29,049 bases of DNA, taken from positions 1-29,049 of IMG/VR virus record IMGVR_UViG_3300017991_001347. One strand, written 5' to 3'. Of the stretch, positions 2,143 to 29,049 are shown piece by piece (position 1 is the stretch's first letter; each line of letters begins with the position of its first letter). Origin of the DNA: a virus. The translations under genes were made by a program, and so were the position numbers. The notes below the pieces were generated by a model. The model saw only the letters and a program-made list of their open reading frames with translations. It searched no databases and was not told where the DNA came from.

Positions 2143-2603
2143 CAGGTCACCTCCCCGGCCAGCTCGAAGTCGAAGGCGATGCCGAACACCACGTCCGTGA
2201 ACAACCACTCGCGGGAGGGTCTCAGGACGGTTCGCCTCGTCTGGATGTACCGGACCCTCGTGTAGCAGAGGGGCTTGCGCTCCGTGGTCATCATCTGGAC
2301 GACCACGTTCGACTCGTCTACGAACGCGACCCGCTGGGTCGCCTGCTCGTCCTTGGGGTTGAGCCGATGAGCCATCCGGACGGTCGTCATCTGCTCCATC
2401 CGGATTCGCTTCCCCGCCTGGTCCCGGTAGTCCTCCGTGTTGTTCGTCTGCATCTCCACGGAGAACAGCCGGTTGAGCTTGGTGTTCGGAGCCACCTTCG
2501 GGTCGAGGATCTTCCTGGACAGGGACATCCCGTCGGGGACCGTCTTGATCTCCTCGGTCACAGCGACGAACAGGTCGTCGAAGGTGGTGTCGGACACGGC
2601 CAT
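2142..2603 (-). CDS. Putative tail terminator / tail completion protein
   Basis: This 153-aa protein begins MAVSDTTFDDLFVAVTEEI. Its mixed helix/strand pattern ends in a hydrophobic strand (WLFTDVVFGIAFDFELAG), which suits the alpha/beta fold of tail terminators that cap the tube at the head side. Its place between a probable adaptor and the gp10-like gene agrees with a connector role. A head-closure protein is the main alternative. GGAG lies eight bases before the ATG, and the start overlaps the upstream stop by one base (TGATG). No diagnostic motif was found, so the function is inferred from synteny and length. Confidence 0.5.
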   Translation of the reverse strand: MAVSDTTFDDLFVAVTEEIKTVPDGMSLSRKILDPKVAPNTKLNRLFSVEMQTNNTEDYRDQAGKRIRMEQMTTVRMAHRLNPKDEQATQRVAFVDESNVVVQMMTTERKPLCYTRVRYIQTRRTVLRPSREWLFTDVVFGIAFDFELAGEVT

Positions 2604-3391
2604 CAGACGGGCTCCCCTCCGGTCGTCCGGCTCCAGTAGGCCGGTGCCCCGAGCATGATGACCGGGGACACGTTCGCCTTGGGGTCTCCGCTCAGGCCGG
2701 TCTCGTCATCGTCGTAGCGGAACTTGATGCGCTTGAAGGAGTCCTCGTACTTCTTGAGGTACTTGTCCGCCACCTCCCCGTACTTGCCCCCGCTCGAGGA
2801 GCCCGAGGCCGAGCTGCTGTAGTCCAGGAAGACGTAGTGCAGCGTCAGGAACAGGTGGGAGGATCTCAGCGAGTAGCTCGACAGGATCAGGTACGGGCGG
2901 TTGCCCAGCTCCATCAGCCGCACCTGGATCTCGTCCCAGGCAGCGTCGATGTAGCCCTGGTAGCTCAGGGAGTCCTGGGCCTTCCAGTCGCGGATCTCCG
3001 TGTGCATCCGACCGAGGTCGTCATCCGAGATCACGGGACGGAGCCGACAGCGGACGAGGGCTGCTTCCCTCCGGAACTCCATGGGGTCGCCGTCGATGGT
3101 CAGCTCCCAGACCTCCATCCAGTCGTCGGCCAGGGTGAGGTCTTCCGTGTCTGCCGCCGGGATCTCGTACCAGGCGTAGTCGCCCACCACGGAGCACACG
3201 TAGGGTCCGAGGATGGGCGTGTCGTTCCCCTGGTCCGCCGAGTAGATGTTCAGCGTGCCAGCCGTCGGTACGACCTTGGAGCCCTCCAGGTACACGGGGA
3301 GGGCGACCACCTGCTTGACCCCACGCTCGATGTTGTCCGGCGTGGCGAAGCGGGGGGAGATGCGGGACCGCTGGTCAGGCGTGTAGGTCAT
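2603..3391 (-). CDS. Putative head-tail adaptor protein
   Basis: This 262-aa protein has two visible parts. Residues 1-120 are beta-rich. The rest is helical (GYIDAAWDEIQVRLMELG, then KYGEVADKYLKKYEDSFKRI), with a low-complexity serine/glycine linker at about 193-200. The helical part resembles adaptor proteins of the HK97 gp6 / SPP1 gp15 kind that bind the portal ring. The extra N-terminal domain makes it longer than typical members, which are around 100-180 aa. It begins with an ATGA overlap with the holin-like gene, and AAGGAG lies 11 bases upstream. The connector role is an inference from position and helix pattern. Confidence 0.5.
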   Translation of the reverse strand: MTYTPDQRSRISPRFATPDNIERGVKQVVALPVYLEGSKVVPTAGTLNIYSADQGNDTPILGPYVCSVVGDYAWYEIPAADTEDLTLADDWMEVWELTIDGDPMEFRREAALVRCRLRPVISDDDLGRMHTEIRDWKAQDSLSYQGYIDAAWDEIQVRLMELGNRPYLILSSYSLRSSHLFLTLHYVFLDYSSSASGSSSGGKYGEVADKYLKKYEDSFKRIKFRYDDDETGLSGDPKANVSPVIMLGAPAYWSRTTGGEPV

Positions 3392-3595: not shown

Positions 3596-4804
3596 CTACG
3601 GCAGCGGGTACATCGGACCGGCCCACAGGTTCGAGATCTTGCCGGTGACGCTCTTGCCGTTCTCCACGAACAGCCTGACCCTGACCTTCATCGTCGGGCT
3701 CTCCACGTACCAGGGGTCGATGTTGAGCGTGGCTCCGGACTCGGCTCTGCTGGACCCATAGCAGGTCGCCTCGATGGTGTCTCCCCGAAGGAATCCACGG
3801 ATGGTGTTGTCAGAACCGCCTGTGGTGATGGCTCCATTACCCGAGACGACACTGATGGTGTTGGTCGCGTAGTGGTGTCCTCCGAACCCAAGGACGCCAC
3901 CACTCGATCCGCCGTAGACCGACCAGGAGTCGTTGACTGTCCCGTTGTTGTAGATCCCACCGAAGATCAACACGTTCCCGGACGCAGCCAGGGAGGTGAA
4001 CACCAGGGTCATCCCCACCTGCAAGCCCGTCAGGTACGTCAGGTCGTAGTAGTCGGAGCTGATGTCACCCCAGAAGATGATCTCCTTGTTGCCGGAGGCT
4101 GCGGTGATCTGGAACACCAGCTCATCCCCGTTGAACTCCAGGACATCCCAGTCCGACATGTTCCCGGAGACCTCGGTGCCTTCCCAGATCCCCTCCGTGC
4201 CAGGGCCGTCCGTCTTCCAGTCCTTCGTCCCCGTGCTGGGGAAGTCCCAGAAGACGATGTTCCCACCTCCGCCGCCACCACCAGGGGTGACCCAGCCGAG
4301 GGCTCCGCCGGAGACGCCGATGCACTGGCCCTCGGCACCGCCACCGATGGAGTGATCCGAGGAGCTGTCCAGGGCGTGGGACCTCGTGTGCTTCTTGTCC
4401 ACGGCGTCCTTGGCATCCGCCACGGCCACCTGATTGGCCCCACCGAAGTCGAGGTACTGGTCGGTGTTCTGCGTGTGCTTCTTGGTGACCGCATCCTTGG
4501 CGTTGGCGGCGGTGACCTCGTTCGCCCCTCCGGTATCGAGGGCCTGGTCGGTCCCCTGGGTGTGACGAGCCGCCGAGTTGGTGGCGATGTCCCCGTGGGC
4601 GAACGCTCCCAGGTGGGCGGTGTCTCCTGCCGCAGCGGTCCCGGCAGCGTCGGCCCCGACTCCCGCAGCGGTGTGGGGAGCCCCCGTTCCGATGGAGTGG
4701 TCGTGGGCGTCGTCCGCCTCGGCGGCGGTGACGATGTTCCCGACGCCATCGTTGAGACGCTCTGCCTCGTAGGCGCTCGGAACATTCTGATAGGAAACAG
4801 GCAT
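3596..4804 (-). CDS. Mosaic fibre-like virion protein C (402 aa)
   Basis: This 402-aa protein is probably part of the virion surface. Residues 80-139 hold two tandem repeats of about 29 residues, built on TDQ-LD-GGAN-V-A-AKDAV-KKH. A shared block (GQCIGV, ALGWVTP) at about 160-173, a glycine run, and a beta-rich C-terminal domain of about 220 residues follow. The repeat, the GQCIGV block and the ending (GPMYPLP) recur in the 399-aa neighbour at 4816-6015, so the two are paralogues. GAGGAG lies seven bases before the ATG. The place between capsid and connector genes suggests a head fibre, but a tail fibre encoded away from the tail module cannot be excluded. Confidence 0.7.
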   Translation of the reverse strand: MPVSYQNVPSAYEAERLNDGVGNIVTAAEADDAHDHSIGTGAPHTAAGVGADAAGTAAAGDTAHLGAFAHGDIATNSAARHTQGTDQALDTGGANEVTAANAKDAVTKKHTQNTDQYLDFGGANQVAVADAKDAVDKKHTRSHALDSSSDHSIGGGAEGQCIGVSGGALGWVTPGGGGGGGNIVFWDFPSTGTKDWKTDGPGTEGIWEGTEVSGNMSDWDVLEFNGDELVFQITAASGNKEIIFWGDISSDYYDLTYLTGLQVGMTLVFTSLAASGNVLIFGGIYNNGTVNDSWSVYGGSSGGVLGFGGHHYATNTISVVSGNGAITTGGSDNTIRGFLRGDTIEATCYGSSRAESGATLNIDPWYVESPTMKVRVRLFVENGKSVTGKISNLWAGPMYPLP

Positions 4805-4815
4805 CTTCTAGCTCC

Positions 4816-6015
4816 TCACACCGGGTACAGAGGCCCAACCTTGAAGTTGTACATCTCGCCCGTCATGGTTGCGCCGTTCGGCACTTCGAGGTGGATGCGT
4901 CCCCTTAGTGTCCCATTCCGTGGGTGCAGTCGGGATGTGGTCTGACCTCCGCCTACGAAGCTGTTGTCGGAAACCCTGTACCAGTAACCGGCTAGCCCAG
5001 TCGCCTCAGACACCCTCATCTCGCCCGTGCCGTTCCAGTTTGCTGCGGTCGAGAGTGCTGTGAATGATCCCACGCTGTTGTTGTACCTGCTAGCGAAGTA
5101 GAGGCGTTGGGCGGCAGGGTTCTCCATCTTGACGAACAACTGCTCGGCCCCGTCGTCATGCTCCAGGTAGATCTCGCAGGAACTCCCGACACCGAGGGAT
5201 GACAAGTTGATCGCTGCGGCCAGGTCGAACACCGGACCACCCGTCCGAAGATTCCGGTAGGCCGACAGGTCCACCACGAAGTCCGCTGACTTGGTCACCC
5301 CGCTGCTGTTGTTGAGCGAGAAGGAGAAGACCCCACCGCTGAACGCCAGCACGTCGAAGTCCGCCAGGTCTCCGGAGCCGGTCCAGTCGCCTGCCGTCCC
5401 CGCACCTTCGGTCTTCCAGTTGCGGTCCACGGGGAAGCCGTAGTCCTTGAACGTCGCACCGCCCGTGGACGGCGTGAGCCATCCCAGGGCGGGACCGGGG
5501 ACGACCCCGATGCACTGGCCAGGAGTCCCCGCTCCGACCGAGTGGTCGAGAGCTGAGTCCAGGTCGTGCTGCCGGTCGTGAGCCTTGTCGGCAGCGTTCT
5601 TCACGTCCGCTACCGTCACCTCGTTGGGGCCACCCAGGTCGAGATACTGGTCGGTGTTCTGGTCGTGGGCCTGGGCGTAGGCGGTTGCCCCCTCCAGGGC
5701 CGTCAGGGTGTTCCCAGCGCCGTCGTCGAGGGCCAGGGCGGTGGTAGCCGTGCCTCCGGAGTCGATGGCCTCCCACGCCCCGGAGACGCGCTTGTAGACG
5801 GTGGAGTCGGTTGCCCCATCCGTCCGTAGGAACAGGGAGCCATCGGGACGGGTGTGGGTCGGGACTCCGGTCCCGGACCCCACCGTGGGAGAGTCCGGGA
5901 CGTCCTTGACGAGGGTCCCCGTCGCCAGACAGACCTCCCCGAAGACCGCGAACGTCTTGAGGTTCACGGGCCGGGGGTCGTTGACCTCGGGGCCTGTCCG
6001 GTCGGGGATCGCCAT
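4816..6015 (-). CDS. Mosaic fibre-like virion protein B (399 aa)
   Basis: This 399-aa protein is built from parts shared with both neighbours. Residues 1-85 (DPRP-NL, FGEVCLATG, PTHTRPDGSLFLRTDG, VYKRVSGAW) match the N-terminus of the 651-aa protein at 6624-8579. Residues of about 116-185 (NTDQYLDLGG, ADVKNAADKAH, GQCIGV, LGWLTP) and the C-terminal GPLYPV match the 402-aa protein. The pattern suggests a common virion-anchoring head domain with exchangeable, beta-rich C-terminal domains. The ATG directly abuts the upstream TAG, so translation is probably coupled; only a weak GGTGA site is visible. Function is inferred from architecture, and receptor or surface glycan binding is possible. Confidence 0.7.
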   Translation of the reverse strand: MAIPDRTGPEVNDPRPVNLKTFAVFGEVCLATGTLVKDVPDSPTVGSGTGVPTHTRPDGSLFLRTDGATDSTVYKRVSGAWEAIDSGGTATTALALDDGAGNTLTALEGATAYAQAHDQNTDQYLDLGGPNEVTVADVKNAADKAHDRQHDLDSALDHSVGAGTPGQCIGVVPGPALGWLTPSTGGATFKDYGFPVDRNWKTEGAGTAGDWTGSGDLADFDVLAFSGGVFSFSLNNSSGVTKSADFVVDLSAYRNLRTGGPVFDLAAAINLSSLGVGSSCEIYLEHDDGAEQLFVKMENPAAQRLYFASRYNNSVGSFTALSTAANWNGTGEMRVSEATGLAGYWYRVSDNSFVGGGQTTSRLHPRNGTLRGRIHLEVPNGATMTGEMYNFKVGPLYPV

Positions 6016-6318
6016 CTAGTTCACCAGGAACGCGATGGAGATGTTGGCACCCGCCGCCTGCCGCTTGACGTCGATGGTCAGCTCGGAGTCCTTGCCCAGG
6101 GCCGTGTAGTACGAGCCGGTGGCTCCGATCAGCCGCTCCAGCTCGACCGCACCGCTCTTGCCGATGAACTTGATCTGGTAGGCGGTGGCGTTGCCCTCCT
6201 CCCAGATCTCGACGCTCGTGCCGCCCTTGATGACGACCCGATCCCCGGCACCCCAGTAGGCGGCGGTCGCGTCCTTCTTGTACGTCCCCTGTGCGGGGGT
6301 CAGCACCTTGTCAGCCAT
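6016..6318 (-). CDS. Small hypothetical virion protein (100 aa)
   Basis: This 100-aa protein begins MADKVLTPAQGTYKK. It looks like a compact all-beta domain (RVVIKGGTSVEIWEEG, AYQIKFIGKSGAVEL, SELTIDVKRQ, NISIAFLVN) without membrane segments. AAGGAG lies seven bases before the ATG, and its stop touches the start of the 399-aa fibre-like gene. Its first codons overlap the end of the coiled-coil gene upstream by eight bases. A capsid decoration or fibre-base protein would suit the size and location, but no family is recognised. Confidence 0.75.
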   Translation of the reverse strand: MADKVLTPAQGTYKKDATAAYWGAGDRVVIKGGTSVEIWEEGNATAYQIKFIGKSGAVELERLIGATGSYYTALGKDSELTIDVKRQAAGANISIAFLVN

Positions 6319-6619
6319 CCTCGTTCTCCTTGCCCCTGGCCATGGTCGGGGCGGTCTCGTATTGAGGGAGGACGGAGCGGAGGAGATCCTCGACCGCCTG
6401 GATCGCTCCCATGTGGGCGTCGATCTGCGAACGCATCTTGTCGGCCTCGTCGAGCAACTGCTGTCGCCTGACCCGAGCCGTCTGGAGGCTCTGCCGGTAT
6501 TCCGAGAGCTTGGCTTCCAGAGTTGCCGGTTGTAGGGACCCAGAGGTTTCGCCCTTGGAGGTCACAGGCACCACCCCCAGGCGACTCAGGTCAGGCTTCT
6601 TGGGCAGCGAGTCACTCAC
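6311..6619 (-). CDS. Small coiled-coil hypothetical protein (102 aa, GTG start)
   Basis: This 102-aa protein begins at GTG 6619, four bases after the stop of the 651-aa gene, with GGAGG nine bases upstream. Residues of about 35-85 form a long predicted coiled coil (LEAKLSEYRQSLQTARVRRQ and following). The termini look disordered (proline/lysine-rich start, ENEDG end). It might be an assembly chaperone for the adjacent fibre-like proteins or a minor structural spacer, but I recognise no family. The frame extends further upstream only antiphase through the 651-aa gene, which I rejected. Confidence 0.7.
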   Translation of the reverse strand: MSDSLPKKPDLSRLGVVPVTSKGETSGSLQPATLEAKLSEYRQSLQTARVRRQQLLDEADKMRSQIDAHMGAIQAVEDLLRSVLPQYETAPTMARGKENEDG

Positions 6620-6623
6620 TCGA

Positions 6624-8579
6624 CTACGCCTCCGCGTCGTAGATCCAGATCCAGCCGTCGGTGCCGTCGGGGCAGATGACCTTGAAGCTGGCCTTCTTGG
6701 ACCCCACCGTCCCGGCGTTGGCGTAGAAGAGCCCGCCGCTGGTGCTGGAGTGACCCTCGACGCTGAACAGGTACTCGACCTGAGCGTCACGGGTCGCCTG
6801 GTCCGCACCGTCCGTCACGAAGCGGTGGAGGCTGTGCTGGGTCGCACCCAGGACGCTGGACGTGCCGCCCAGGTAGATCTCGGACATCGCGCCCGCGACC
6901 GTCCCCTTGTTGATCGACCCGTCGTTCGGGACGATGAACCCGAACCGGCCACCCTGGGCCGCACCGGACACGTTGCCGCCAGCCTTCACCTCGAACGAGG
7001 CGTGGATGCCGTTGACCGTCCCGGCCACGTCCTGGTCGGACACGCAGTTGGAGCGGATGCCCTCGCCGGAGACCCCGTCACCGTCGAAGTCGGCCCGGAT
7101 GTAGAGGCCCCGGAAGTCGCCGGAGGTCGCCGTGGTCTGCACCCGGAACTCCAGCATGTTGGCCCCGACCACCGCCGTGGTCGCCGGGTCGCCGCTGGTG
7201 CCGATGCCTGCCAGCAGGGCGTTGGCCGGGTCTGCCCCACCCATCACGTCGAACACCACCAGGGTGCCCATCTGGATGGCCCTGGCGGTGTCCCCGATGA
7301 CCACGTCACCAGGCGTTCCACCAGCGGCTCCGACATCGATGAACACGTCGCCGGAGTCCACCGCAGCGGACCCCGAGCCGAGGACCACGTTGCCGGAGTC
7401 GGCGTCATCCGAGAACCCGGTCACCAGGCTCAGGATGCCGGTGTTGCCGGAGGTGCCCGCGTTGGAGTCCGCGTCACCCGTCTGGATGGTCAGGGCTCCG
7501 GTGTCCCCGCCCGTCCCTGCGGCGTCGTCGCAGTTGGTGTCGCCGGTCTGGATGGTCAGGGCTCCGGTGTTTCCGCCCGTGGCGGCTCCGGCCCCGTTGT
7601 CCACGATGGAGTCACCGGTCTGGATGACCATGGCCCCGGTGGCGGGGGAGCCTGCGGCATCCGTCAGGTGACGCTCACCGGTCGTGAAGTCCATCGCGGC
7701 GGTGTCGCCCGTGGCGGCTCCGGCGGTGATGTCCGTGGTCGTGATGTCGGTGGCGTCCCCGAAGTCGAAGTCCACCGTCCCGGCGATGTTGATCGCCCCG
7801 TTGCCCAGCACGTCCACGGCCAGGGCGTTGGCGGTGTCGATGTCGATGCCACCCACGCCGTTGATGATCACCTGCCCCGCCGTGGTCGTCTGGAGGGTCA
7901 GGGAGCCGTTGTCCACGCTCACGTTGGAGCCACCAGTGCCGTCGATGGAGAAGGCCCCACCCGCCAGCACGTCGAACGTGGTGTCGCAGTCGATGTCGAT
8001 GCCGCCGACCCCACCCTCGATGGTCAGACCAGCGGAGGCAGCGTTGCCGATGGCGATGTTGCGGGCGGCGGCTCCCGTGCCGATGTTCACGTTCTGGGCG
8101 ACCGCATCGGCTCCGATGCTGATGGCCCCGGCAGCGGACTCCACGGCCACGCCATCCTGACCATCGATCTCGATGACCCCGGTCGTGGTCGTGGACAGTT
8201 CGAGGCGGCACGAGTCGGCGGTCAGAACCCAGTCGTCGGTCCCGTTGTTGTAGCCGATGGTCGCGTCGTCATCGTCCCCGAAGTAGATGTCGTGATCGTC
8301 CGGGATGTGGATGTCCCCGCCGGTCGCCTCGACGGCCACCCAGGCCCCACCGGCCCTGGCGTAGACGGTCGTGTCCGCACCACCGTCGGTCCGGAGGAAC
8401 ACGGAGCCGTTGGGCCGGACGTGAGTCGGGGCACCAGCCCCCGTGCTCAGGGTCGGAGAGGTGGGGACACCGGAGACCTCCACGCCAGTGGCGAGGCAGA
8501 CCTCCGCGAACACCACGATGTTCTCCAGGTTGAGGGGACGAGGGTCGCTCGTCTTGGCTGCGGTTCGGTTCGGGATCAT
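6624..8579 (-). CDS. Mosaic fibre-like virion protein A (651 aa) with beta-repeat shaft
   Basis: Residues 1-85 form the head domain shared with the 399-aa protein (DPRPLNL, VCLATG, RPNGSVFLRTDGG). Residues of about 95-420 are glycine/aspartate/threonine-rich repeats such as IDIDCDTTFDVLAGGAFSID and several 20-24-residue units ending ALTIQTGD, which look like a beta-helical or beta-solenoid shaft. The C-terminal 200 residues are a different globular domain ending DGWIWIYDAEA. AGGAGG lies seven bases before the ATG. Shared head plus variable shaft and tip is a fibre architecture. Because it lies just after the capsid genes, a head fibre is plausible. No enzymatic motif was seen. Confidence 0.75.
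   Translation of the reverse strand: MIPNRTAAKTSDPRPLNLENIVVFAEVCLATGVEVSGVPTSPTLSTGAGAPTHVRPNGSVFLRTDGGADTTVYARAGGAWVAVEATGGDIHIPDDHDIYFGDDDDATIGYNNGTDDWVLTADSCRLELSTTTTGVIEIDGQDGVAVESAAGAISIGADAVAQNVNIGTGAAARNIAIGNAASAGLTIEGGVGGIDIDCDTTFDVLAGGAFSIDGTGGSNVSVDNGSLTLQTTTAGQVIINGVGGIDIDTANALAVDVLGNGAINIAGTVDFDFGDATDITTTDITAGAATGDTAAMDFTTGERHLTDAAGSPATGAMVIQTGDSIVDNGAGAATGGNTGALTIQTGDTNCDDAAGTGGDTGALTIQTGDADSNAGTSGNTGILSLVTGFSDDADSGNVVLGSGSAAVDSGDVFIDVGAAGGTPGDVVIGDTARAIQMGTLVVFDVMGGADPANALLAGIGTSGDPATTAVVGANMLEFRVQTTATSGDFRGLYIRADFDGDGVSGEGIRSNCVSDQDVAGTVNGIHASFEVKAGGNVSGAAQGGRFGFIVPNDGSINKGTVAGAMSEIYLGGTSSVLGATQHSLHRFVTDGADQATRDAQVEYLFSVEGHSSTSGGLFYANAGTVGSKKASFKVICPDGTDGWIWIYDAEA
7480..7640 (-). 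repeat. Tandem coding repeats within fibre-like protein A
   Basis: The DNA word TCTGGATGGTCAGGGCTCCG begins at 7481 and recurs at 7547, with a diverged copy from 7619. The spacings are 66 and 72 bases, that is 22 and 24 codons. The repeats encode G-AL-TIQTGD units with variable aspartate/glycine loops of different length. This indicates recent duplication in the shaft. Confidence 0.8.
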
Positions 8580-13176: not shown

Positions 13177-13434
13177 TTACTCCTTGTCCGAGGCGTCCAG
13201 CAGACGCCGGATCTCCCATCGTAGTTGCTTGAGGGCCTTGCTGTACTCGATGGCGGGGATGGTGGCTCCCCGATGGTACGCCTGCTTCAGCGTCTTGATG
13301 GTCACCTTCTCCGGGTAGCACCACCAGATGATCCCGTCCTCATCCACGACAGGGGACGGGTGGGTCCCCAGACTCGCCAGGACGAACGCTGCGAGGTTCG
13401 TGTCCCTCGTCCGATAGCCTCGTTCGTGTGTCAC
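13177..13434 (-). CDS. Small hypothetical protein between terminase and portal (85 aa)
   Basis: This 85-aa protein starts at GTG 13434, which overlaps the terminase stop as GTGA, so it is translationally coupled. The pattern TRDTNLAAFVLASLG, an acidic loop, IIWWCYPEK, then a helix ending ALKQLRWEIRRLLDAS recalls the DUF5659-type small phage proteins often found beside terminase and portal genes. No catalytic motif is present. It might assist packaging or portal assembly, but the function is unknown. Confidence 0.75.
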   Translation of the reverse strand: MTHERGYRTRDTNLAAFVLASLGTHPSPVVDEDGIIWWCYPEKVTIKTLKQAYHRGATIPAIEYSKALKQLRWEIRRLLDASDKE

Positions 13435-14897
13435 CAGATCTCCACCCTCTGAGTCGGGGCCGTCCTCGTCGGGTCCAGCCAGCTCCCCAAGATGTACCGG
13501 ATCGCGTCCAGGACGTGCGTGTACTCCTTGTCCTGCCCGGAGTCCGTCCCCCTCCAGTGGGAGAACGCCTTGATGCTCTCCGTGCAGCGGGGGTGGATGG
13601 TCACGCGGTGATCTGCGAACCCGAAGTTGATCGCCTTCGTCCCTGTGAGGATCGACCCCTTGGCCTTGTGTGGGGACACGATCCTGAACGGGGCCTGGCG
13701 GACTTCCAGTAGGTCAGCGAACGCCTGCTCGAACAGACGGTTGAGGCTCTTGCCTCCGCTGGCCTTCCCTCCCGTGTTCACGTCCCCACGGGCTTCCTTG
13801 ACGGCGAGCAGGGAGATCCCGTGGCGGTTCAGCATCCGCTCGACGGCACGGGCGTCGGTCTCGGGGGTCGTCGCCCCTGGGCTGATGTACTCATCCAACA
13901 GGTAGGCGTGGTGCCGGTTGGTCCGCTTGTCCTTCCAGCGGGCCACGACCACGACCGCCTCGTGTCGGGCCTTCTCCCCGTGGTCGAAGCCCAGGACGAT
14001 GTCCACGTCCTCCATCGGGAGGTCCGGGGAGATGTTCGACCGGCTGAAGGCATCGTAGGCCCTCCCCGTCGTCACACCCCTCCAGGCGGCATGGATACGC
14101 TGGTCTCGCTCCCAGGAGGCCACGTTGGCGATCTGGGCGTCCACGTCCTCCTTGGACCTCCAGGGGACGTTCTCGTAGTTCAGCTCCAGGACCGTCTGGC
14201 TCCACAGGATGGAGGTCACCGGGTCTTGCTCGATGATCTCCTCGAGCCAGGTGAGGTCCTCCCCCACCGCCGTGAAGGCCATCAGGATCGGAGCTTGCTT
14301 GAGGGCGGCGGCACGGATGATGCCACCCCACCGGACCCGTCGTGGAGGCTCGTTGATGATCACTACGTCCGCCCAGATCCCCTCGAGGCTCGTCCCGTCC
14401 TGCTTCCCACTCCGGAAGATGACCTGGGCTCCGCCCCGGAGGAGGATGCCCCGGCGTCCCCGGACCATGTAGCCCCGGACCTCATCGTAGACGCAGTCGG
14501 GGTGGAGGACTCCGGGTGGCTCCAGCTCCCGTAGGACTCGGCAGACGTCGTCCGCGTAGGAGGACTCCAGGTCGTTGACCACGTACAGGACGCTGCACTT
14601 GGTGGTCGTGACTCCCCAGATGTCGTTGTGGGGGTGGGTCCCGGTCAGGAACGACCAGCACTCGGCTCCCAGGGCGTAGGACTTGCCGACCTTGTTCGCA
14701 GCACGGAGGAGCCGGTTCGGCTTGTCGAGGGACTCGTGGAACGCCCGCTGGCCGGAGGACATCCCTCCCGCCCAGTAGACGGCGAGGGGGTTCTCCTCCT
14801 CGATGCGGGCTAGGTCGTCGATCTCCGCGAGGAGGTCGGGCGGGAGCGATGTGAGATCGACCCCGCTCAGGATCTCCTCAATGGCGGGTTGGCTCAT
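13431..14897 (-). CDS. terL: Terminase large subunit (ATPase plus nuclease)
   Basis: This 488-aa packaging motor subunit has an N-terminal ATPase and a C-terminal RNase H-like nuclease. Counting from MSQP, the Walker A-like RAANKVGKS is at 65-73 and the Walker B DVVIINEP at 177-184, with catalytic E183. The nuclease acidic residues include D305 in LGFDHGE and D464 in HVLDAIRY, with D334/E336 also near. The ATG at 14897 overlaps the small subunit gene by 20 bases. A longer start at 14954 would add 19 antiphase-looking residues and is less likely. The ribosome site is weak, suggesting coupling to the small subunit. The packaging mode cannot be read from sequence alone. Confidence 0.95.
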   Translation of the reverse strand: MSQPAIEEILSGVDLTSLPPDLLAEIDDLARIEEENPLAVYWAGGMSSGQRAFHESLDKPNRLLRAANKVGKSYALGAECWSFLTGTHPHNDIWGVTTTKCSVLYVVNDLESSYADDVCRVLRELEPPGVLHPDCVYDEVRGYMVRGRRGILLRGGAQVIFRSGKQDGTSLEGIWADVVIINEPPRRVRWGGIIRAAALKQAPILMAFTAVGEDLTWLEEIIEQDPVTSILWSQTVLELNYENVPWRSKEDVDAQIANVASWERDQRIHAAWRGVTTGRAYDAFSRSNISPDLPMEDVDIVLGFDHGEKARHEAVVVVARWKDKRTNRHHAYLLDEYISPGATTPETDARAVERMLNRHGISLLAVKEARGDVNTGGKASGGKSLNRLFEQAFADLLEVRQAPFRIVSPHKAKGSILTGTKAINFGFADHRVTIHPRCTESIKAFSHWRGTDSGQDKEYTHVLDAIRYILGSWLDPTRTAPTQRVEIW

Positions 14898-15345
14898 CGG
14901 GCTCTGTGGAGTCTTCCGCGTCCAGGATGGCCGGGACGCTCTGATGGTCGGCAAGGCGTTCCAGGAGCCGCTGCCTCCGCTCCTCTAGCTCCCTGGCACC
15001 GATGGCCCGCTCGACGGCATCCCCGATCTGCTGGGCCGCTCCCGCTCGGATCGCGTTGGCGTGAGCCTTGATCGACAACCCCGCTGCCGTCATCTGCCGG
15101 TCGGGAGACTCCTTGCTGTCGGTCAACACACCCCGCAAGTGAGCCGCAGCAAGCTGGGCGTTGTCCTTCAAGTTGTCGATGAGTTCCTGCCTGCAAGCCT
15201 GCAGGATCTCACTGTTGTTTGGGTCTCGACGCCACCTGTAGATGGTGGATTCGTGGACTCCGATCTGGGCTGACACGGAGGCATCCGTGTGTCCCATGAC
15301 AACGAGCATCAGGGCTTTCATCCGGGTCGCTGGGCTGTGGGCCAC
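14878..15345 (-). CDS. Terminase small subunit (HTH DNA-binding)
   Basis: This 155-aa protein recognises the genome for packaging. It carries a helix-turn-helix at about 18-40 (GHTDASVSAQIGVHESTIYRW). A helical oligomerisation region follows (ELIDNLKDNAQLAAAHLRG, then IGDAVERAIGARELEERRQR), with an acidic tail. I placed the start at GTG 15345 because of the GAGAGG/GGAG purine run just before it. The open frame runs on to an ATG at 15483, but that would overlap the upstream gene by 56 bases with a proline/arginine-rich, antiphase-looking extension. It lies directly before the large subunit with a 20-base overlap. Confidence 0.88.
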   Translation of the reverse strand: MAHSPATRMKALMLVVMGHTDASVSAQIGVHESTIYRWRRDPNNSEILQACRQELIDNLKDNAQLAAAHLRGVLTDSKESPDRQMTAAGLSIKAHANAIRAGAAQQIGDAVERAIGARELEERRQRLLERLADHQSVPAILDAEDSTEPDEPTRH

Positions 15346-16577: not shown

Positions 16578-17075
16578 TCAGGTGTGTTCTCGCTCCGGTG
16601 GGGTCGCCATGATCTTCATGATCTTGCGGACGGCTTCGGGATGGACGACTCGGATAGGGAGGTCGGGTTCTCCTGTCAGCTTGATCAGGGGGGAGCGTTC
16701 ATCCTCGTAGTCAGCCATCAGGTGGCTTCGGATGATCTCCTTGTAGTGGGAGGTGATCCCTTCGGTGATTCCCTTCAGGTTGGCTTCCGGCCATTCCTCC
16801 TCCAGGGAGTCGAAGGTCTCGTTGGCACACCGTTGGGCCATCAGGGTGATCGTGTTCTCGATCAAGTCCCCTCGTTGGTATCCGGTCAGGACTCCGAGGC
16901 GGTCGAGGTCATACAGGGAGATCGGGTTCTCTCCGGTCATCCATCCCCGGATCGCTTCGGGCTCTTTGTCGAGCATCCAGGCGATGGACTCCACGTCCCA
17001 ATCAGGGTCGTCCTCGATGGACTCGGACACCATCGAAGCGATCTCCGCACTCAGGTCTAGCTTCACGTACTCCAC
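16578..17075 (-). CDS. XRE-like HTH protein (165 aa), possible immunity/replication repressor
   Basis: This 165-aa protein starts at GTG 17075, with AGGAG five bases before it. Residues of about 26-70 look like an XRE/lambda-type HTH (DVESIAWMLDKEPEAIRGWM, then SLYDLDRLGVLTGY). The remainder is a helical acidic domain without a LexA-type Ser/Lys peptidase signature. It is the only gene besides the late block on this strand and is transcribed away from the iteron region, so its upstream DNA contains the repeat arrays. A repressor of phage genes or of replication is the likely role. The convergent gene ends 58 bases away and no clear terminator lies between them. Confidence 0.65.
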   Translation of the reverse strand: MEYVKLDLSAEIASMVSESIEDDPDWDVESIAWMLDKEPEAIRGWMTGENPISLYDLDRLGVLTGYQRGDLIENTITLMAQRCANETFDSLEEEWPEANLKGITEGITSHYKEIIRSHLMADYEDERSPLIKLTGEPDLPIRVVHPEAVRKIMKIMATPPEREHT

Positions 17076-17121
17076 AGGTTCTCCTCTCTCGGGATCGAGG
17101 AAGTTTCGACCACGGTGATTC

Positions 17122-17167
17122 CCGTTCGTGGCGGCATGGCGGCTACGCCGCCTCCGCCCCGAAGTCG
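17122..17167 (+). repeat. Left arm of 44-46 bp imperfect inverted repeat
   Basis: Read in reverse complement, this arm matches 17385-17428 from CGACTTCGGGGCGG through GGCGGCATGGCG to CCGTTCG with a few differences. It contains an inner perfect hairpin, GGCGGC-TAC-GCCGCC at 17139-17153. Confidence 0.85.
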
Positions 17168-17242
17168 TTGGGTGTCCGAGAGACCGAGGCTTACCGGCTG
17201 AGAGACTCCGATGGCTTGTCCGGGCGGCTTCCCCAAGCCCTG

Positions 17243-17303
17243 GTTACCTCTCAAAGTAGTTACCTCTGAAGTGGTTACCTCTGAAGGTAGTTACCTATGT
17301 ACC
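17243..17303 (+). repeat. Iteron array A: four 15-16 bp direct repeats
   Basis: GTTACCTCT begins at 17243, 17259 and 17274, and a diverged GTTACCTAT begins at 17290. The full units continue with CAAAGTA, GAAGTG or GAAGGTA. Read on the other strand the core is AGGTAAC, close to the AGGTCAC core of array B, so the two arrays look like head-to-head copies of one binding motif. Confidence 0.85.
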
Positions 17304-17308
17304 CTCAA

Positions 17309-17380
17309 ACTGAGGTCACCCGATAACAGACTGAGGTCACCCCATAACAGAGTGAGGTCTCCCGATAACAGACTGAGGTC
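17309..17380 (+). repeat. Iteron array B: 21-bp direct repeats, three full plus one partial
   Basis: Units begin at 17309, 17330 and 17351, exactly 21 bases apart, with a truncated fourth at 17372. Each full unit has TGAGGTC, then three variable bases with a C tract, then ATAACAG at its end. A 21-bp period is two DNA turns, so bound proteins would line up on one face, as in classical iteron plasmid origins. Confidence 0.9.
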
Positions 17381-17384
17381 TTTT

Positions 17385-17428
17385 CGACTTCGGGGCGGGG
17401 GCGCGTAGCGCCATGCCGCCCCGAACGG
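17385..17428 (-). repeat. Right arm of imperfect inverted repeat
   Basis: This is the inverted partner of 17122-17167, lying about 217 bases away across both iteron arrays. Its inner hairpin is GGCGC-GTA-GCGCC (17400-17412). The stem differs from the left arm in length and sequence but stays perfectly paired. Confidence 0.85.
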
Positions 17429-17459
17429 AAACCCAACCTACGAATCATCTTCCACTCCG

Positions 17460-17494
17460 TTGACAGTTCCTTTTCATACGTCTACCGTGTGAGT
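17460..17494 (+). promoter_or_regulatory. Promoter of the replication operon, probable leaderless start
   Basis: A perfect -35 TTGACA (17460-17465) is followed by a 17-base spacer and TACCGT (17483-17488), fitting TANNNT. The ATG at 17495 comes six bases later, where transcription is expected to begin. No ribosome site is present, so the mRNA is probably leaderless. Confidence 0.75.
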
Positions 17495-17662
17495 ATGAGC
17501 AACGCACCGAAGAAAAATCTTCATCAGATTCGCATCCAGGTGACCCCTGCCCAGTTGGAGTGGCTGGACAGGAAGGCTGAAGAACTGGGGGACTCCAGGT
17601 CCTCGGTCATCCGGTCAGCGATCAGAATGCTGATCGAGAGTCAGGGGCCTGATAAGGACTGA
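17495..17662 (+). CDS. Ribbon-helix-helix protein (55 aa), putative CopG-like copy-control regulator
   Basis: This 55-aa protein begins MSNAPKKNLHQIRIQVTP. The beta strand HQIRIQVT (10-17), helix AQLEWLDRKAEELG and helix SRSSVIRSAIRMLIES follow the Arc/MetJ/CopG ribbon-helix-helix order, in which two subunits pair strands to enter the major groove. It is the first gene after the strong promoter and 59 bases before the initiator candidate. This matches the copG-rep order of rolling-circle plasmids such as pMV158, where CopG represses its own operon. The promoter overlap and adjacent repeats suggest autorepression, though the operator is not identified. It lacks a Shine-Dalgarno and likely uses a leaderless start. 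Confidence 0.82.
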   Translation: MSNAPKKNLHQIRIQVTPAQLEWLDRKAEELGDSRSSVIRSAIRMLIESQGPDKD

Positions 17663-17721: not shown

Positions 17722-18612
17722 GTGAAAGATCCTACCCACAACAGTGGGGACGTCAAGCCCGCCGCACGCCATGCAGTCTACGGAGACGTCGTTCCGTTTG
17801 GGATCTATACCAACCCCCATCTCCCTATCCAGAGCAGGGTGCTCATGTTCGTCGCTGCTCGTCAGGGGCCTCCTGGTCGGGGTTGTTCGATCGGTCCTAC
17901 GAAGATGGCCCGGTGTTTCGGATGTAAGCCACACGCCTTGAGGGTCACCCTGGGGAGGATGACCAAGAGCGGAGCCCTGACCAGGGTGACCTGGGATGAG
18001 GGTCGCCGCTGGGGTTACCGCGTCGGCATCGAGATCCCCGATGACCCACTGGAGGCCATCAACGACATCTCCGGCCCCTGGAAGGAGGCTTGTCGGCCCG
18101 AGGAGCTGAACGAGGTCAGGGATCGCATCCAGGATCGGTTCAACTCCCACAAGGAGATGCCGGGCGTCTACAACTCCGTGGAGAAGGATGAGGTCGACAA
18201 CCTGCTCGCCAGGGATCACTGGCTTGCCCTGAATGACCTCTGGTTGGTCGAGGGGTTCAACACCCTCCTCGACCTGAGCAACAAGGACAGCGTGGGGTGG
18301 TGGCTGTCCCTGATCTCGAACGTGAGGATGAATCGATCTCCGTGGGCGGAAGGCTTGGACGGGGATCTCCTCCTACAGGTCGGCATGCTCAACGCCGCTG
18401 ACCACATCATGCGGAAGGTTCGAGACGGGGAGTGGCACCCCAAGAAGCCGTCCGGCCTCTTCTGCACGATCCTCCAGACCCTGGACAAGAGGGGCGACAC
18501 CCTCTCCCTCGTCGATTCCGACGACGTGGAAGAGGACATGAAGACCCTGGCGACAACCAACCAGACCGTCCGTCAGGTCTGGGATGGGATGCAGTGGAAG
18601 GAGATGGGATGA
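17722..18612 (+). CDS. Putative replication initiator with winged-helix N-terminus (296 aa)
   Basis: The GTG at 17722 has AAAGGAG with a five-base spacer; an upstream in-frame ATG at 17683 lies inside the hairpin and is rejected. Residues of about 25-105 look like a winged helix of the replisome-organiser/DnaD-N/RepA_N kind: NPHLPIQSRVLMFVAARQG, an HTH in IGPTKMARCFGCKPHALRVTL, the next helix GRMTKSGAL, and a beta wing (TRVTWDEGRRWGYRVGIEI). The C-terminal 190 residues are helical and unrecognised. Adjacent iterons, the RHH gene and absence of other replication genes make initiation the best guess. A transcriptional regulator is the main alternative. No helicase, primase or rolling-circle Tyr/HUH motif was seen. 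Confidence 0.65.
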   Translation: MKDPTHNSGDVKPAARHAVYGDVVPFGIYTNPHLPIQSRVLMFVAARQGPPGRGCSIGPTKMARCFGCKPHALRVTLGRMTKSGALTRVTWDEGRRWGYRVGIEIPDDPLEAINDISGPWKEACRPEELNEVRDRIQDRFNSHKEMPGVYNSVEKDEVDNLLARDHWLALNDLWLVEGFNTLLDLSNKDSVGWWLSLISNVRMNRSPWAEGLDGDLLLQVGMLNAADHIMRKVRDGEWHPKKPSGLFCTILQTLDKRGDTLSLVDSDDVEEDMKTLATTNQTVRQVWDGMQWKEMG

Positions 18613-28776: not shown

Positions 28777-29049
28777 CTACTGCTGGCCCAGGAAGATGAT
28801 CTTGAACGTCTGGTCGGTGGTGATGGCCTCGATGTGGAACACGGCGGCTCCCGCGTCGATGGTCGCACCCTCCGGGTTCATCCAGATCCAGACGCCGTTC
28901 TCCCCGACCACCTGGCCCATGTCGGAGTCGGCCACGAACGGGTAGTCGTCCGTCCCGGCGATGGCGTCCACGGCCCCGGCCCCGTCCGTCCCGCCACCGA
29001 TCTGGATGTAGTCGGTGTCGGTGACCTTGAGGATGGCGATCCCCATGAT
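28777..29049 (-). CDS. C-terminal part of the 175-aa junction-spanning protein (5' end at 368)
   Basis: This is the remainder of the gene described at 1-368. Bases 28937-29049 repeat the left end, so the unique part here is 28777-28936. The frame reads through to IIFLGQQ and TAG at 28779-28777. The segment GENGVWIWMNPEGATIDAGA suggests beta strands. The apparent 89-aa start at 29046 is an internal methionine. The gene ends four bases before the start of the 122-aa gene. Confidence 0.85.
   Translation of the reverse strand: MMGIAILKVTDTDYIQIGGGTDGAGAVDAIAGTDDYPFVADSDMGQVVGENGVWIWMNPEGATIDAGAAVFHIEAITTDQTFKIIFLGQQ
28937..29049. repeat. Right copy of 113-bp terminal direct repeat
   Basis: This copy is identical to 1-113. 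Removing it and joining 28936 to 1 gives a circle of about 28,936 bp. Confidence 0.95.

Follow-up and report, generated by a model that had tools for sequence, protein, structure and literature searches.

A candidate iteron-type replication origin with two opposed repeat arrays in an uncultivated siphovirus-like phage

The oriR of phage P1 and the origins of Rep_3-type iteron plasmids are based upon direct repeats of ~20 bp and AT-rich DNA, with the gene for a single initiator located adjacent to them. DnaA boxes are usual at iteron-controlled origins, but not universal. The lambda O-type origins similarly comprise a phage initiator, iterons and AT-rich DNA (PMC7466680). The temperate RepA mycobacteriophages Miko, Rachaly and Jeeves encode an initiator of 320–350 aa with an N-terminal helix-turn-helix and carry parABS, while origin repeats were not found by the authors (PMC7157519). 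In the Vibrio PLE satellites, related elements exchange the initiator along with its cognate iterons (PMC8263062).

The DNA analysed here (the window) comprises positions 1–29,049 of the IMG/VR virus record IMGVR_UViG_3300017991_001347, from an uncultivated phage. The first 113 bp are repeated exactly at the other end (1–113 = 28937–29049), giving a unit genome of 28,936 bp. The genome is therefore probably circular or terminally redundant, and the window probably the whole phage. The genes for terminase, portal, capsid and tail are oriented leftward, and a small early block runs rightward (about 17.5–20.2 kb), beginning with an RHH gene that is followed by a gene for a 296-aa protein. The large terminase (13434–14903) has no tblastn match at E 1e-5 in 50,697 GenBank phage records; IMG/VR yielded only ten relatives, and bacterial genomes yielded none with the TerL profile. 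By these sequence comparisons the phage belongs to an uncultivated, siphovirus-like lineage. The window proteins searched included no recognisable helicase, primase, polymerase or loader, and no integrase, partition ATPase or lysis gene was recognised among the majority of them that were compared with Pfam and PHROG. The tail genes include an HNH homing-endonuclease-like gene with a NUMOD3 motif (1136–1777). Elsewhere in the window (3596–8579) the neighbouring genes at 6624–8579, 4816–6015 and 3596–4804 have repeated stretches in common, and are probably tail-fibre-type paralogues.

Two repeat arrays (A and B) and a pair of inverted arms occupy the intergenic region that separates the RHH gene from the leftward 165-aa gene. 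The features of this region are itemized in Table 1, where L002 denotes a close relative of the phage. On balance the segment is more likely than not an iteron-type replication origin, with a probable further role in copy control or autoregulation.

Table 1. Location of the features in and around the candidate origin, numbered as in the window
Feature	Position	Strand	Description
Divergent gene	16578–17075	−	165 aa; 84% identical in L002
Left arm	17119–17167		Hairpin element, upstream of the leftward (presumably XRE-like) gene; L002 copy at 660–708
Block missing from L002	17176–17459		~283 bp, spanning both arrays and the right arm
Array A	17241–17299	−	Four iteron-like units, cores AGGTAAC, spacing 16/15/16 bp
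AT-rich peak	17243–17387		AT-richest 145 bp of the genome (53% versus a mean of 35%); candidate melting region
Array B	17309–17381	+	Three 21-bp units ACTGAGGTCACCCGATAACAG plus a part-unit
Right arm	17385–17431		Second copy of the hairpin element, in opposite orientation
Promoter of rightward operon	17460–17488	+	TTGACA-N17-TACCGT, read from sequence
RHH (CopG-type) gene	17495–17662	+	93% identical in L002
Candidate initiator gene	17722–18612	+	296 aa; second gene of the rightward operon; not at this position in L002

The cores of array A are located at 17243, 17259, 17274 and 17290, and the array has a TRF score of 76, compared with a maximum of 71 when the whole window was dinucleotide-shuffled 60 times. 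The units of array B begin at 17309, 17330 and 17351 with an exact period of 21 bp, followed by a part-unit of ~10 bp at 17372; its TRF score of 123 was reached in none of the 60 shuffles. Both the four units at 15–16 bp and the 21-bp period noted in the preliminary description are thus borne out. The arrays are indeed inverted relative to each other, as had been described, and the AGGT-AC core said to be shared between them on opposite strands is common to six of the eight units; the exceptions, AGGTCTC and AGGTCTT, are the final two of array B. Beyond the arrays, cores in the genome are only single and scattered. An open reading frame (17211–17408) crosses the arrays, with a flat GC content across the three codon positions (0.52/0.56/0.55; GC3 is about 0.7–0.9 in neighbouring genes). 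A coding frame through the arrays was rejected on this absence of a codon signal, which makes non-coding DNA the most likely reading. Array B has no match as a DNA pattern in IMG/VR, nor has the repeat region among phages, and a search of Rfam returned nothing.

Some traits of an iteron origin are found here. Direct repeats of ~15–22 bp lie in non-coding DNA at a level beyond chance, and coincide with the AT-richest DNA of the genome, a candidate melting region. They adjoin the promoter of the early operon, which carries the winged-helix-like 296-aa gene, and this linked gene, for a putative initiator that would bind the repeats, is absent together with the arrays in L002. There is no strict DnaA box (TTRTNCACA) in the whole genome. 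The GC-skew extremes are located at 7.4 and 25.0 kb with no switch at the arrays; the purine-skew minimum falls at 17,306, a position confounded by gene orientation.

L002 is the only close relative in IMG/VR, a 13,264-bp fragment with about 85% DNA identity to the window over 9 kb. Searches of IMG/VR with the XRE profile and with RHH found L002 plus one weak RHH match (L005). L002 keeps the 165-aa gene, which was called XRE-like on first reading and is presumably so (its protein has no family match), a 186-aa gene (79%), the RHH gene, the left arm and the promoter. The block containing the arrays is missing, with GTTGGGTGT joined directly to TTGACAGT and an uncertainty of 1–3 bp. Assembly collapse was rejected as the cause, as only 1–3 bp are common at the junction. 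As there is no outgroup, the comparison may be read either as loss of the block in L002 or as gain in the window. Similarity breaks off a second time shortly ahead of the 296-aa gene's start codon; in place of this gene L002 has an unrelated 122-aa ORF containing its own 21-bp repeat array (46–168, − strand; 5.9, i.e. about six, copies; TRF score 113), read as VDQSST repeats. This repeat differs from that of the window and has a palindromic core GTGGATNNNNNATCCAC; the array probably serves L002 as its origin. With regard to the probable tail-fibre-type paralogues (3596–8579), L002 also carries the N-terminal part of the 651-aa protein twice.

Two separate segments, the arrays and the candidate initiator gene, thus differ together, with the conserved RHH gene between them. 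The simplest reading of these sequences is that each phage has its own initiator–iteron pair. Since the two differ jointly while the RHH and XRE-like genes stay, the comparison fits an arrangement in which iterons and initiator gene form one exchangeable module around the conserved RHH gene. The RHH1, XRE-like and 186-aa proteins are unlikely to be the main ligand of arrays A and B because L002 keeps their genes without the arrays. The XRE-like repressor as sole ligand, which the preliminary description had set against an origin, is disfavoured on the same ground. The co-variation rests on one relative (n = 1), and the contig of that relative stops within the module, so that RHH2 and the 149-aa winged-helix protein, encoded further down the operon, could also be array ligands. 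More distant relatives (TerL 38–61%) have other replication genes. One of these, L006, has an initiator-like gene (1640–2509) with intragenic repeats of the CGTTACG type, followed by the gene for a DnaC/DnaI-type ATPase (loader; 2519–3304).

The conservation of the RHH gene also bears on the function of the arrays. Direct repeats adjoining an RHH gene, in a genome where an integrase was not recognised, might form a partition centromere at which the RHH protein acts as a ParR/omega-like binder in an extrachromosomal prophage. However, the RHH gene is conserved in L002 where the arrays are absent, and a ParA/ParM-type ATPase was not recognised among the genome's proteins searched. On these two grounds the RHH-bound centromere was rejected, and we regard it as highly improbable.

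The arrays lie between divergent genes, with the −35 box of the early promoter immediately downstream; this promoter is conserved in L002 as TTGACA-N17-TACTGT. In both phages the ATG of the RHH gene is about 7 nt past the conserved −10 box, so the transcript is probably leaderless; this may hint at an actinobacterial-type host. Given this position, the arrays might instead be an operator cluster, through which a regulator controls the divergent XRE and RHH promoters. Such divergent control would suit opposed arrays, and the early operon codes for three small DNA-binding-type proteins; possible regulators are the second RHH protein, the 149-aa winged-helix protein and, if it serves purely as a transcription factor, the 296-aa protein. 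Yet L002 has kept the genes on either side as well as the early promoter in the absence of the arrays, and the promoter therefore does not need them. An operator cluster would leave the genome with no other origin candidate, and both the coincidence of the arrays with the AT-richest stretch and the scattering of single cores elsewhere in the genome argue against it. We consider it a realistic but unlikely alternative to an origin.

The arms that enclose the arrays are 47 and 49 bp in length, rather than the 44–46 bp first given, and are 90% complementary over 49 columns. Their pairing scores 59.9 bits, whereas the best of 60 shuffles of the 2 kb around them reaches 35.6, and so the enclosure itself is real. 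Each arm folds alone into a hairpin: about 10 bp form the outer stem (roughly TTCGGGGCGG/CCGCCNCGAA) and 5–6 bp the inner stem, which a 3-nt loop closes. What had been described as a single large inverted repeat forming part of the origin is therefore better read as two opposed copies of a palindromic element, separable from the arrays. On the evidence of L002, which has one arm and no arrays, the enclosing repeat is not an integral part of the candidate origin.

There is very little sequence difference among the three arms (left, right and L002). One of the six inner pairs varies, being C–G, G–C or missing: both sides change between the left arm and that of L002, and the pair is unpaired in the right arm. 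The other inner pairs are invariant. This hints at a conserved hairpin, although with three sequences and one co-varying pair the covariation value is matched by 240 of 500 shuffles. In IMG/VR the hairpin core is matched only in L002. The arms could then be the functional unit, as structured hairpins of a primosome-loading or termination type with the arrays secondary, and the folding of each arm and the paired change are consistent with this. Against it, an arm is retained in L002 without arrays and so is not tied to them, the exact core is absent from 84,980 bacterial and archaeal genomes, and the arms lack a T-run and thus are not a classical terminator. This role for the arms is improbable.

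The inverted arms, together with a ~283-bp block that is present or absent between close relatives, are also what would be seen if the block were a MITE-like mobile insertion with the arms as terminal inverted repeats. The boundaries of the block differ from those of the arms, however, and there is neither a target-site duplication nor a second copy in the genome. A mobile element bounded by the arms was rejected since the left arm remains in the 'empty' site, and the chance that the block is such an insertion is very slight indeed.

An iteron-type origin requires us to consider the 296-aa protein. Its gene has a plausible ribosome site AAAGGAGATCCTGTG and a strong GC3 of 0.81. The first ~110 residues were read by eye as a winged helix, a weak assignment. 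There is no match at a useful level in Pfam, PHROG, NCBIfam or the PDB, and the sole profile hint is PaaX-like with E 0.048, below the cut-off. No relatives were found in IMG/VR, GenBank phages or plasmids, or in the records behind seven family members or weak hits. A Rep_3 domain (PF01051) was not found in a scan that had positive control genomes, and Phage_rep_O (PF04492), Phage_rep_org_N (PF09681) and HTH_36 (PF13730) gave no match; neither did RepA_N (PF06970), for which 0 control genomes were above the cut-off. Two AlphaFold predictions made without relatives have mean pLDDT values of 40 and 38 and are unusable. We infer that the protein is the initiator because of its position, because no other replication gene was recognised among the proteins searched, and from the comparison with L002. 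The proposal that the segment is an origin and/or copy-control site is thus strengthened by the absence of both arrays and gene from L002 and by the AT-rich peak. The proposed winged-helix initiator is still the best reading, and the part of that proposal concerning its fold gains nothing from family searches or the models.

A possible mechanism can be outlined, in which a small phage codes for one replication protein and the segment is its iteron-type origin. The 296-aa protein would bind eight cores of the GAGGT(A/C)AC type in both opposed arrays cooperatively, those of array B being presented on one helical face as 21 bp corresponds to two turns. The AT-rich arrays would then melt following binding, and the host replisome would be recruited to the opened DNA. 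Binding upstream of the −35 box could in addition repress or tune the RHH–initiator operon, and the hairpins are possible loading or transcription signals. Binding, melting, replisome recruitment and autoregulation at the arrays are all deduced. The different periods of arrays A and B would be unusual for one initiator. The most elaborate version, in which one initiator of an undescribed family acts on opposed iteron arrays of 15–16 and 21 bp, with hairpins that load the replisome bidirectionally, all in a swappable module, is unlikely and speculative.

By analogy, the segment would be of a known general kind, the iteron-type plasmid or phage origin. It differs from that kind in its opposed arrays of unlike period, hairpin arms, intervening RHH gene and unassignable initiator. 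As at P1 oriR and the Rep_3-type origins there are direct repeats of ~20 bp, AT-rich DNA and a single (here candidate) initiator gene. Unlike those origins there is no Rep_3 domain and no DnaA box, two opposed arrays of different period are present, and the RHH gene lies between origin and initiator. In lambda O-type origins the iterons are inside the initiator gene, whereas here they are intergenic and upstream of another gene, with no recognised helicase loader partner and no Phage_rep_O match. No sequence relation is detectable between the 296-aa protein and the initiators of the RepA mycobacteriophages. The joint exchange of initiator and iterons in the Vibrio PLE satellites is a precedent for the difference between the window and L002; the PLE initiators are of the RepA_N type, unlike the 296-aa protein, and the three semi-palindromic iterons of ~30 bp in PLE1 differ from the arrays found here.

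If this reading is correct, the locus would add an initiator without a recognisable family, together with its binding sites. It would also be a natural case of phages exchanging initiator and iterons around a conserved regulator, and could give a small cloning replicon for an uncultured group.
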